Assembly (NCBI RefSeq): GCF_000313915.1
Contig: NZ_AMYT01000017.1
Coordinates: 1 to 64,000 of the forward strand
DNA: 64,000 nt
Origin: Catellicoccus marimammalium M35/04/3
Lineage (GTDB): Bacteria; Bacillota; Bacilli; Lactobacillales; Catellicoccaceae
Direction of reading: 5' to 3'
Both the position numbers and the translations under genes were made by a program. Shown here piece after piece: positions 29,696 to 54,867 of the stretch. How positions within the stretch are numbered: position 1 is the first letter of the stretch; every line of letters starts with the position of its first letter. The notes under the pieces were generated by a model. That model ran no database searches, was not told the origin of the DNA, and saw only the letters and a list, made by a program, of their open reading frames with translations.

Positions 29696-30385
29696 ATGAA
29701 AATGTTAAAATTTTTAGTTATTGAAGATGAGCGTAATTTATCAGATAGTATCGCAGATATGTTACGTCGTCTAGGAAAAGTAGAACAAGTTTTTAACGGA
29801 GAAGATGGCTTATATCAAGCAGAAAAAGGAGTTTACGACTTAATTATTTTAGACTTAATGTTACCAGGATTAGATGGTTTTACTATCTTGAATGAATTAC
29901 GTCGTAAAAAAATTAATACACCTGTTTTAATTTTATCTGCTAAAGACAGCTTAGAAGATAAAGTACGTGCTTTTAAAGATGGTACGGATGATTACTTAAC
30001 AAAACCATTCCATCGCGAAGAATTAATGTTACGTGTTAAAGCGTTATTAAAACGTTCTATGGGAATTGAAGAAAGTAATGTAATTGAAAATGGAAACTTA
30101 AAAATTAATCTAAATAATCACGTAGTTACTTATGAAGATCGTATTATTCAATTACAAGGAAAAGAATTTGACTTATTATTATATCTTGTACAAAACAAAG
30201 ATGTAATTGTTACAAAAGAACAAATCTTCGACCGAATCTGGGGATTTGATTCTAGTACTTCTATTACCGTTGTTGAAGTGTATATGAGTAATTTACGTAA
30301 ACAATTGAAAAAACAAAATGTACCAAACATGATCCGTACATTACGTAATGTGGGCTATATCTGGGAAAATCCATCGGAAGACTAA
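29696..30385 (+). CDS. ciaR: OmpR-family response regulator, CiaR-like
   Basis: 229 residues: a receiver (1-120) with Asp53 in LIILDLMLP and Lys in LTKPF (about 102), then a winged-helix DNA-binding domain (about 130-226). The stretches QVFNGEDGLYQAEKGVYDLI and KEFDLLLYL...IFDRIWGFDSSTSITVVEVY are close to streptococcal CiaR as I remember it. There CiaRH acts in cell-wall stress, competence and small-RNA control. Whether the regulon is shared is inference. It is translationally coupled to the kinase by a 1-base overlap. Confidence 0.85.
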   Translation: MKMLKFLVIEDERNLSDSIADMLRRLGKVEQVFNGEDGLYQAEKGVYDLIILDLMLPGLDGFTILNELRRKKINTPVLILSAKDSLEDKVRAFKDGTDDYLTKPFHREELMLRVKALLKRSMGIEESNVIENGNLKINLNNHVVTYEDRIIQLQGKEFDLLLYLVQNKDVIVTKEQIFDRIWGFDSSTSITVVEVYMSNLRKQLKKQNVPNMIRTLRNVGYIWENPSED

Positions 30386-31662
30386 TGGATAGTCGTATTC
30401 GCAAACAAGAGAAACATCTGTTACTTTCTAATATTTTGATTTTTTCTTTTCTCTTTATTTGTTTTGGTATGATTATTTATCATATGACAAAAACTACTAT
30501 TTATTTCCAGGTTGATAATGTAATCGAGCAAATTTTCCAAAATAAAGATATTACAGAAGATAAAAGAATTCGTCAGGTAGAAAAGACCTCGCGCTATACG
30601 ATTCGTATTGTGCGATGGTCTGATGATGGAAAAATTTTAAATGATGAAACGATTGATGATCGCAATATGTCGGACTCATTGTTTAAACAGCTCTCGTTGG
30701 ATAAAAATGATTTAAATCGTTTTGTCTGTAAAGAATACAAAGATGACGATTCTAATGTATATTATCGATCGATGACAAAACCTTATATGGTAAAAGGGAA
30801 GAAAACTTATGTTGAAGTATTAGTTGCGATTACGCAAATTCATGAAGCAGCAGGTCGTTTCCGAAAATCATTATTTTTCTATTTGATTATTTTTACGCTG
30901 CTGTCTTTTATTATCAGTTATTATTTAGCCAAATTAGCAATGAAACCTATCATTCGTTCTTGGAGAAGTCAACAACGCTTTGTGGAAGATGCTTCTCATG
31001 AATTACGAACTCCATTAACCGTCATTCAAGCTAAATTAGAACAATTGTTTACTCATCCTCGACATACGATTATCGAAGAAAGCGAGAATATTGCTATTTC
31101 TTTAAATGAAGTTCGTCGTTTAGAGCAATTGATTAAAGATTTATCTTTCTTAGCTAAATCAGATAGTAGTGCATTGGTAATTCATGAAGAATTACATGAT
31201 ATTCATCAATTTATTGACCAGGCAGTCTCTCCTTATTGTGAAATTGCGGAAATGAAAGACCGTCATTTGACGATAGAGAATCATACACCACATTTAAAAT
31301 TATGGTTTGATTCACAAAAAATCCATCAATTGTTGGTAATTTTGATTGATAACGCGATGAAATATACAGAAGACGAAGGACAAATTGTTGTCGTATCAAA
31401 AACAACTCCTAAACATTGGATTATTGAAGTAAAAGATAATGGAATCGGAGCAAGTGATGAAGATAAACAACATTTATTTGACCGTTTTTACCGTGTAGAT
31501 TCTTCTCGTTCTCGTGAGACTGGAGGAACAGGATTAGGGTTATCTATTGCACAATGGATTGTCAATTCACATGATGGCACAATTACAGCATTAGATAATT
31601 CGCCAAAAGGTTTAATTATTCGTGTTGTATTACCATTACAGACAGAGGAAAGAAATAATTAA
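30385..31662 (+). CDS. ciaH: Sensor histidine kinase, CiaH-like
   Basis: 425 residues. Membrane helix 1 (about 12-34), an extracellular sensor of about 135 residues and helix 2 (about 170-190) are followed by the dimerisation box [11 protein letters not shown] (His205). The ATPase boxes are NAMKYT (N), DNGIGAS (G1) and [11 protein letters not shown] (G2). The ATG shares one base with the ciaR stop. It probably senses a cell-envelope signal and phosphorylates the CiaR-like partner. The rnz gene follows 19 bp later without a terminator. Confidence 0.88.
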
Positions 31663-40067: not shown

Positions 40068-40106
40068 AAAGAAAGAAGTTTACCCTAAAAAGTAAACTTC
40101 TTTTCT
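40068..40106 (-). terminator. Terminator of the rqcH-aro-cps operon
   Basis: AAAGAAGTTTAC (40072-40083) pairs with GTAAACTTCTTT (40092-40103), with a T-rich tail. It is the first clear terminator on the minus strand after rqcH starts at 48512. Confidence 0.82.
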
Positions 40107-40176
40107 TTTTCTTCTATTTCTTTGTTCATCTTACAGATATTTATCTCATTTTAGAAATATATTTTTCGTTCTATCA

Positions 40177-52575: not shown

Positions 52576-52614
52576 ATAAATAGAGTACTTCGATAGAGGT
52601 ACTCTATTTTTTTA
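52576..52614 (+). terminator. Terminator of the ald-tdcB-permease operon
   Basis: AAATAGAGTAC (52578-52588) pairs with GTACTCTATTT (52599-52609), with seven T's. Confidence 0.9.
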
Positions 52615-52868
52615 TGCTCTCATGGCAGGTAATTTGATCTGCCTCTACCCTTTAGATAACAATGAATATTAATCTATGAGTTTATTGATAAAAAATCCAG
52701 ATTCAATCAATAACGAGCAATTTCGTTCATTATTTGCTTGATGTTTCCTAATAAATGAACTAGTAAAGAAATTTTTTTCTACTATAATAAGTGATGTAGT
52801 TATCACAAATATAATTTATTTGAATGATCCCTTCAAAACTAAAGGGAAGCACTATTAAATTGTTTCCG

Positions 52869-52901
52869 TAGTTTAATTATAGTTATTCTATAATCAAACT
52901 A
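52869..52901. repeat. 14-bp near-perfect dyad over a TATAAT
   Basis: TAGTTTAATTATAG (52869-52882) and CTATAATCAAACTA (52888-52901) are inverted with one mismatch and a 5-nt centre. The right arm includes TATAAT (52889-52894). It may be an operator on the small-RNA promoter, or a 5' hairpin of a longer RNA. Confidence 0.6.
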
Positions 52902-53031
52902 ACTATTTATACCCTATATTTATATATCTGTTAACCATTTTACCCCAACCTTTTTTAAATGGTTAACAGAGCTCTTTTATCCATTACCCCTAATACCCTA
53001 TTATCGATAAAAGAGTTACCCTGAAAGATAC

Positions 53032-53063
53032 AAGCTAGCAATAATTATTGCTAGCTTTTTTTA
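53032..53063 (+). terminator. Terminator ending the gene-free segment
   Basis: AAGCTAGCAATAA / TTATTGCTAGCTT is a perfect palindrome followed by TTTTT. Since no ORF lies between it and the permease terminator, it implies a separate transcript. Confidence 0.9.
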
Positions 53064-53308
53064 TACTAAAAAAACAATTCAGAATTTTCTCCTTTTGACA
53101 ATTACTCTTCTTTTTTCTATTTATTTTTTTCTTTATGAGAAACAAATGAAATAAAAAAATAAATTTTTTTGCAAAATTCCTTCTATATCAATAAAAATCA
53201 ATGATAAATGATAAAATTCTAATTTTATAGAGAATAAATAATGGTGAACATCTCCAAGATATGACAAAACGATAGTAAAAATTCGATAGAGAACTTATAT
53301 AATATTCA

Positions 53309-53337: not shown

Positions 53338-53427
53338 CGTGTCGAATTATTGTTATAAAAAAATTAAAAAAGAAGAGTGAATTTATCTCATCTTCCATTA
53401 TTTTACAGTGGAAAGGAGTTTTGGACG

Positions 53428-54867
53428 TTGGATTTTTATATTGAAAAGGACGTTATTCGTCGTATTAAATTGGTAGAATTCATCTATTCTCATAATCATT
53501 GCTTGGTAGATGAAATTTTAAATGAATTGAAAATTAGTTTACAGACGCTAAAAAATGATTTTAAACGTGTTAATATTGATATCGAAGAGTTTATTTTAAC
53601 AAGTCATATTAATTCAAAAGAAATTAGTATTACTTTTAAAACAAATATTCCTCTATTACAAATTACCCAAAAATTATATAATGAATCAAAATTTGTCCGC
53701 TCGTTATATCGAGCATTACATACTTCAGACTTAACAATTGCAGAGCTGCGTGAAGCTGAATTTATATCAGAAAGTAATGCCTTTCGTATTTTAAGTAATG
53801 TTAAATTATATTTAACAGAGCATGATATTTTAAAAAATGAAGTACGCTATCGAATGTTAGTAAATGCAACTTATGCTAGAATTGATTTTGCTGATGAGTA
53901 CATTGATCAGTTTTTATGGCACAAAGCTAAGATAATACTAGAAAACATTATTGACAAACGGACCGTTCATTTTAATGATTTTGATGCTAAAATCGTCATT
54001 ATGAATATTTATTTAGCCTTATCTAGAAATGAAGAACATCCATTGCAAATTAGTTTACGTCAATTTGCTTTCCTTTTAGAGGATCCAACTTATCCAAAAT
54101 TAAAAAGAGAATATGAGAAAGAAATGTCTAAAGAAAAAGCCGAAATTGAAGCTGTCTTAACAACTTTAGTCTATCATCAATTTGCAAACTATAAAGATTA
54201 TACAGTATCTCAACCTTTTCAAAAGACACATTGGAATGCTCTAACTGCACAACATAATCAAGTTTATGCTTTATATATTCAATTAATCACTTTAAGCAGT
54301 CGAACAATCATTGATGAAAGTTCTTTCCAACGTCAATTTGAGCGAGTTTTATTTAATGGTTGGGTTGGTATAAATTTATTTACACCACATTTTTTAATTG
54401 ATAGTCATTCTTTTAACTATCAACAATTCCGCCAGGTTATCCTACGTTGGAATGCTGAAAACCCTATTGCTTTGAATTTACAAGAAAATAGCATTAAAGG
54501 CTTTTATTATTTATATAAAAATATTTTAGCAACGCATGATAATTATTATGTATGTAATATTGTCGCAACCAATCAAGACCAGTTTACGTTTATTTTTAAT
54601 TTCTTTTTCAAATATATTAGTAGTGCACAATTTAAAATCAATTCAACGATTTATTATACTTTGGACGAACTACCAGAAGAATATTTTAATTATCCTTATA
54701 TTATTATTTGCGACCATTCATTGTATAAAGAGAATTATAAAAATGCGAAGAATTTATTTCCGTTTGCTGTAGATACTATTCGTCAAGATACTCAAAGATT
54801 GATTGATTCTATCTTTGAAGATGTCAATTCTTTAAAGACAACTATGGATAAAGATTATTTATCATAA
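53428..54867 (+). CDS. Mga/AtxA-family transcriptional regulator
   Basis: 479 residues from TTG 53428. Winged-helix domains come first: RRIKLVEFIYSHNHCLVDEILNEL and a second HTH around LTIAELREAEFISESNAFRIL (about 110-130). PRD-like helical regions follow (about 160-380), and a C-terminal EIIB-like fold (about 395-479; YYVCNIVATNQDQF, PYIIICDHSLY). Such proteins control virulence or surface genes and may be phosphorylated by the PTS. AAAGGAG stands 9 nt from TTG 53428; the GTG at 53377 gives 17 more residues but has a poor ribosome site. The target is unknown; no surface gene is adjacent. Confidence 0.82.
   Translation: MDFYIEKDVIRRIKLVEFIYSHNHCLVDEILNELKISLQTLKNDFKRVNIDIEEFILTSHINSKEISITFKTNIPLLQITQKLYNESKFVRSLYRALHTSDLTIAELREAEFISESNAFRILSNVKLYLTEHDILKNEVRYRMLVNATYARIDFADEYIDQFLWHKAKIILENIIDKRTVHFNDFDAKIVIMNIYLALSRNEEHPLQISLRQFAFLLEDPTYPKLKREYEKEMSKEKAEIEAVLTTLVYHQFANYKDYTVSQPFQKTHWNALTAQHNQVYALYIQLITLSSRTIIDESSFQRQFERVLFNGWVGINLFTPHFLIDSHSFNYQQFRQVILRWNAENPIALNLQENSIKGFYYLYKNILATHDNYYVCNIVATNQDQFTFIFNFFFKYISSAQFKINSTIYYTLDELPEEYFNYPYIIICDHSLYKENYKNAKNLFPFAVDTIRQDTQRLIDSIFEDVNSLKTTMDKDYLS

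Follow-up and report, generated by a model that had tools for sequence, protein, structure and literature searches.

What is encoded by a spacer of about 420 bases in Catellicoccus marimammalium M35/04/3 that is bounded on one side by the terminator of a gene for an amino-acid permease and on the other by a gene for an Mga-like regulator, and that holds no convincing open reading frame? Catellicoccus is a dominant bacterium of the gull gut and a marker of water quality, and its genome is reduced. The spacer belongs to a stretch of 64,000 nucleotides (contig NZ_AMYT01000017.1, positions 1 to 64,000), which is referred to here as the window. The spacer most likely contains the gene for a small RNA, which would be one of three of its kind in the genome. 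This RNA probably tunes which surface proteins are made and, if this is true, would to our knowledge be the first regulatory RNA to be reported from Catellicoccus. The gene downstream (53377..54867, plus strand; its start may be 53416) is Mga-like or AcpB-EbpR-MafR-like, with matches to Pfam Mga (E=4e-7) and to NCBIfam NF053736 (E=7e-15, below the cut-off). It is regarded as a context neighbour and, at most, as a candidate part of the sRNA system.

Five copies of TACCC are found within 112 bases of the spacer (52910, 52941, 52985, 52994, and 53017), exactly where a preliminary description of this DNA had placed them. This density exceeds chance, as none of 5000 dinucleotide shuffles of the 282 bases reaches five copies in 112, and any other 112-base stretch of the window contains two at most. 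The RNA is also strongly structured, with minimum free energy z-scores of -7.7 (282 nt) and -10.0 (52900-53064) and no shuffle folding equally well. Each TACCC is unpaired with a probability of 0.83-0.98 (mean 0.92-0.96); the corresponding mean for other GC-rich 5-mers of the same RNA is 0.13-0.24. The only open reading frame of at least 40 aa that starts between the two flanking terminators is one of 45 aa with a GTG start on the opposite strand. The preliminary description, which had reported dense structure, motifs confined to loops or unpaired joints and the lack of a credible open reading frame, is borne out in each of these respects.

All elements of the locus lie on the plus strand. An intrinsic terminator at 52578..52609 (14 pairs and a T run in the terminator scan) separates the amino-acid permease gene from the proposed sRNA gene of about 270 nt at 52793..53064, which is delimited by the structure z-score, the terminator and the paralogs described below. 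Promoter scoring points to a putative -10 box, TATAAT, at 52783..52788 with a weak -35 box, TAGTAA, at a spacing of 16, and the RNA would accordingly start at about 52795. A 22-nt 5' module (TAAATTGTTTCCGTAGTTTAAT; 52856..52877) aligns with a copy in a second array on contig C11 (TAAATTGTTTTCGTAATTTAAT). Folding predicts hairpin A (GTAGTTTAATTATAG/CTATAATCAAACTAAC) at 52869..52901, followed by a single-stranded linker at 52904..52922 (TATTTATACCCTATATTTA; unpaired probability 0.83-0.95) that carries motif 1. Hairpin B (52927..52970) combines a perfect stem of 14 bp (52927-52940/52957-52970) with a 16-nt loop carrying motif 2 (TACCCC at 52941), and hairpin C (52971..53016) combines a stem of 11 bp (52971-52981/53006-53016) with a 24-nt loop carrying motifs 3 and 4 (52985, 52994). 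Motif 5, identified by motif count and unpaired probability, occupies the joint at 53017..53021 before the intrinsic terminator at 53032..53063 (11-bp stem, U run). The stem of hairpin B had been described as a perfect 13-bp stem and is indeed perfect, with 14 bp rather than 13; hairpin C accounts for the stem of 10-12 bp, and the palindromic terminator corresponds to a 26-nt DNA palindrome at 53032-53057. Two perfect terminators had also been claimed, and both are present, the upstream one with a G-U wobble and therefore not strictly perfect.

When the whole genome was searched for places with three TACCC in 75 bases, only two further arrays emerged, on contigs C11 and C15 (C15:239.5k), while the reversed motif used as a control gave no match. 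The C11 array (C11:9.35-9.8 kb, minus strand) carries nine motifs, which lie in the loops of consecutive hairpins and in the linkers; it folds with z = -11.3 and has a promoter of the form TTGACA-18-TATTAT, and the predicted RNA is about 430 nt long. The C15:239.5k array has four motifs and z = -5.1. Across the three arrays, with 5, 9, and 4 motifs, the average unpaired probability is 0.84-0.96. The terminators are clear; the promoter match is weak for the window array (9/12 positions) and strong for the C11 array (11/12). The stems vary from hairpin to hairpin, while the loop motif is constant and always on the strand running into the terminator. In 295 genomes, the 22-nt module (TAAATTGTTTYCGTARTTTAAT) matches exactly only at its window and C11 copies. 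Together, the arrays and the 5' module shared by two of them are the signature of a loop-centred RNA function. Some analyses used genome stretches totalling about 86%; in 858 kb of the genome, YACCCY lies in the loop of a strong intergenic hairpin in 12 of its 370 occurrences, as compared with 0-7 of 263-1107 occurrences for ten control motifs. An attempt to derive a loop model from a MAFFT alignment of 12 hairpins was dropped, the alignment being too poor.

The comparative evidence comes from these paralogs inside the genome, in place of relatives. Searches of 60 and 295 genomes of the order by BLASTN and a single-sequence covariance model yielded no homolog of the arrays, the matches being chance or terminator-level and devoid of TACCC. 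Likewise, the pattern of three TACCC gave no hairpin array in up to 395 order-mates outside the family, where its matches are coding or repeat sequences, often regular iteron-like repeats of 22 bp, and none was found around permease homologs at 80 named loci. No csRNA, RsaE/RoxS, or LhrC family of Rfam matches the window region. For LhrC there is no match at gathering, and none in the window region to E=10 or in the C11 and C15:239.5k stretches to E=1; streptococcal sRNA families give only sub-threshold, terminator-level matches (SpF36 22 bits vs 48).

The closest working model is nonetheless LhrC, which in Listeria is induced by LisRK under envelope stress. The LhrC family of Listeria monocytogenes (LhrC1-5, Rli22, Rli33-1) is multicopy, with five LhrC copies, and presents three redundant C-rich sites (UCCC) in loops and a single-stranded joint, which target the start region of the cell-wall adhesin gene lapB, where Hfq is dispensable (PMC4132741). 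The family described here is similarly multicopy, carries redundant C-rich unpaired motifs (5, 9, and 4 per array) and has predicted targets that include the start region of a collagen-binding adhesin gene. It differs in lacking any sequence or covariance relation to LhrC, in its seed, (A)UACCCY with the complement GGGUAU rather than UCCC, in its four to nine motifs per RNA and in the length of the C11 copy (about 430 nt). The window RNA is thus LhrC-like but neither homologous to LhrC nor a member of its family. RsaE/RoxS and FsrA-type RNAs of Firmicutes also aim C-rich unpaired seeds at G-rich ribosome-binding sites; however, they have few seeds, no Rfam match links them to the window RNA, and the candidate targets here are surface genes rather than genes of metabolism or iron.

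The seed is complementary to GGGUA, which often occurs as AUAGGGGUAU or AUAGGGUAU. The leading predicted partners are all envelope genes, with pairings of 10-14 bp and with the Pfam families WxL, WxLIP, Collagen_bind, and Sortase among them. In an operon for WxL and WxL-interacting proteins (C8:96-99 kb), the leaders of the first WxL gene and of a gene of 115 aa both carry GATAGGGGTAT, and the latter has an additional AGGGTA in codons 3-4. The candidates on contig C19 comprise three LPXTG proteins, two of which are clustered with Mga-like paralogs; on contig C20, a Big_8/Collagen_bind adhesin gene adjoins a gene for a PNAG-synthase-like glycosyltransferase, and a sortase gene on C7 has two GGGUA within its first 11 codons. 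The linker at 52904..52922 is the best predicted pairing segment, with 12-nt pairings to the starts at C19:2388, C20:60067, and C20:61397. Unbroken pairings of 12 nt are predicted for 52906-52917 with the C19:2388 leader, for 52904-52915 over the adhesin ribosome site, for 52911-52922 with the initial codons of the glycosyltransferase gene and for 52991-53002, in the loop of hairpin C, with the sortase codons. As a separate observation, two Mga-like paralogs of the window regulator flank a group of four LPXTG genes at C19:26.6-34.3 kb. Three genes of the group are of a repeated type, and two LPXTG genes carry AAAAAGGGTATT-type leaders.

An association between GGGTA and signal-peptide genes was examined in 858 kb with 764 called genes, counting GGGTA at -45..+40 relative to the start. 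Signal peptides are predicted, by a home-made heuristic, for 10 of the 26 genes with GGGTA near the start vs 89 of 764 overall (p=3e-4), a value for a motif chosen post hoc, after the arrays and a few candidate leaders had been seen, that would not survive correction over all 5-mers and that includes two paralogous LPXTG genes with like leaders. Start sites were called by script, and the sortase gene, whose start was called too long, was left out of the count. GGGTA ranks first among 20 letter permutations and first among 783 5-mers. With a hold-out of about 234 kb added, the figures are 11/30 vs 115/984 (p=2.8e-4); the hold-out alone has only four genes with GGGTA, one of them with a signal peptide (p=0.40), and is too small to be informative. 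For [AG]GGGTAT near starts, the proportion is 7 of 12 genes (p=1.2e-4). The association is absent from two order-mates in which no array was found (5/29 in 800 kb, p=0.19). No bulk enrichment of GGGTA exists near all starts, and any regulon is therefore small. When all starts were ranked by ungapped stacking energies with the array loops, the top 25 included 8 signal-peptide genes, against a mean of 2.4 and a maximum of 6 in 100 shuffled-loop sets, and the two highest ranks went to the 115-aa gene of the WxL operon and to an LPXTG protein. Judged from sequence, and for a motif selected post hoc, the RNAs thus appear to be complementary to a coherent group of mRNA starts to a greater extent than chance would give.

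It is therefore proposed, with moderate confidence, that a trans-acting sRNA, one of three, has its own gene at 52793-53064 and that its seeds pair with surface-gene starts and block translation. Stable hairpins and linkers would display repeated copies of one seed, (A)UACCC(C/U)(U/A)A. These copies would pair with (A/G)GGGUAU elements on or close to the ribosome-binding sites and initial codons of the WxL operon and of genes for LPXTG proteins, the collagen-binding adhesin, sortase and the PNAG-type glycosyltransferase. With several copies in pre-formed loops, one RNA could contact an mRNA twice, or several mRNAs in turn. Pairing would block translation initiation, as does LhrC in Listeria; repression rather than activation is assumed because of the position of the sites. 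The earlier suggestion of a C-rich, multi-loop, terminator-ended sRNA able to pair with G-rich starts gains support from the two paralogous arrays and, as regards pairing, from the association of GGGUA with surface-gene starts.

The same architecture could belong to a sponge RNA of the CsrB/RsmZ design, in which UACCC loops titrate an RNA-binding protein without any pairing to mRNA. A loop motif that stays constant while the stems vary, repeated over many hairpins and up to nine times per RNA, is the classic layout of such RNAs. However, the loop motif is UACCC and not GGA, no candidate protein is known, and a Pfam search of the genome found no CsrA gene (PF02599; control families were detected). 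The same kind of search found no Hfq gene, and the absence of both proteins fits direct pairing and counts against a CsrA sponge. Titration also does not predict the association of GGGUA with surface-gene starts. This explanation is considered unlikely.

Less likely still is a cis-acting leader or attenuator of the Mga-like gene, with a conditional terminator at 53032 under the control of the loops. The window array does lie directly upstream of this gene and is codirectional with it. Yet neither paralogous array serves as the leader of a gene of this type: the array at C15:239.5k and a YqeY-like gene converge, and the C11 array stops about 750 bases short of pyrB, a gene with a PyrR-type site of its own. 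Furthermore, no alternative antiterminator fold is evident.

Repeated DNA sites, operators or iterons, that form hairpins by chance would be a very improbable source of the arrays. Although TACCC-type 22-bp iteron-like direct repeats occur in contigs of other Lactobacillales, the spacing here is irregular and without any iteron resemblance, and all motifs lie on one strand, in the loops of different perfect stems, with a terminator after them. Variable stems bearing a constant, strand-biased loop motif argue for function as RNA rather than as DNA.

That the RNA is a CiaR-dependent csRNA, as the preliminary description proposed, is hardly credible, for although genes for an OmpR-type two-component pair are present in the window (29696-31662) and the csRNAs of streptococci are likewise intergenic, terminator-ended, C-rich and multicopy (PMC8186281, PMC3091779), the CiaR direct repeat TTTAAG-N5-TTTAAG is absent upstream of all three arrays (best 8/12 positions), no Rfam family matches, and the two-component pair falls below every NCBIfam name cut-off among the matches listed.

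Returning to the trans-acting sRNA, a broader and distinctly tentative suggestion is a lineage-specific control of surface display, in which the three multi-loop RNAs, one of them with nine seeds, would form a dosage-graded hub acting on several GGGUAU elements around the ribosome site of each mRNA and would jointly control WxL, LPXTG, sortase and polysaccharide genes by multivalent pairing without Hfq. Examples would be the 115-aa gene of the WxL operon and the sortase gene, with two such elements each. If the sRNA reading is true, control of surface genes by redundant C-rich seeds, in the style of LhrC, arose outside Listeria as well, on unrelated sequence and apparently without Hfq, and the C11 RNA, with its many seeds, would offer a way to learn how sRNA action is tuned by the number of seeds.

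Several minor features were noted alongside the arrays. With the arrays removed, the motif is not commoner than control motifs in terminator loops elsewhere in the genome (C15:40081, C11:20962). An isolated hairpin with a TACCCTA loop (aaaagaaagaagtt TACCCTAAAAAGTA aacttcttttcttt) lies in the window at 40068-40109 (plus strand), between a recJ-like gene and a capsule-regulator-like gene; such hairpins are no more frequent than those of control motifs, and it is perhaps a chance occurrence. Just upstream of the C11 array promoter, a perfect terminator-like hairpin of 19 bp carries CACCCTA in its loop (C11:9.80-9.85 kb; L067 2800-2852, minus strand), and a sub-threshold PyrR-binding-site-like leader precedes pyrB (L067 1624-1804, minus strand). 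In other Lactobacillales, regular 22-bp direct repeats containing TACCC resemble plasmid iterons (L083, L086-L088, L090, and similar). Finally, the G+C content of the window is 33%, as opposed to 42.0% in the genome announcement of the strain (PMC3569323), and the published value looks wrong.
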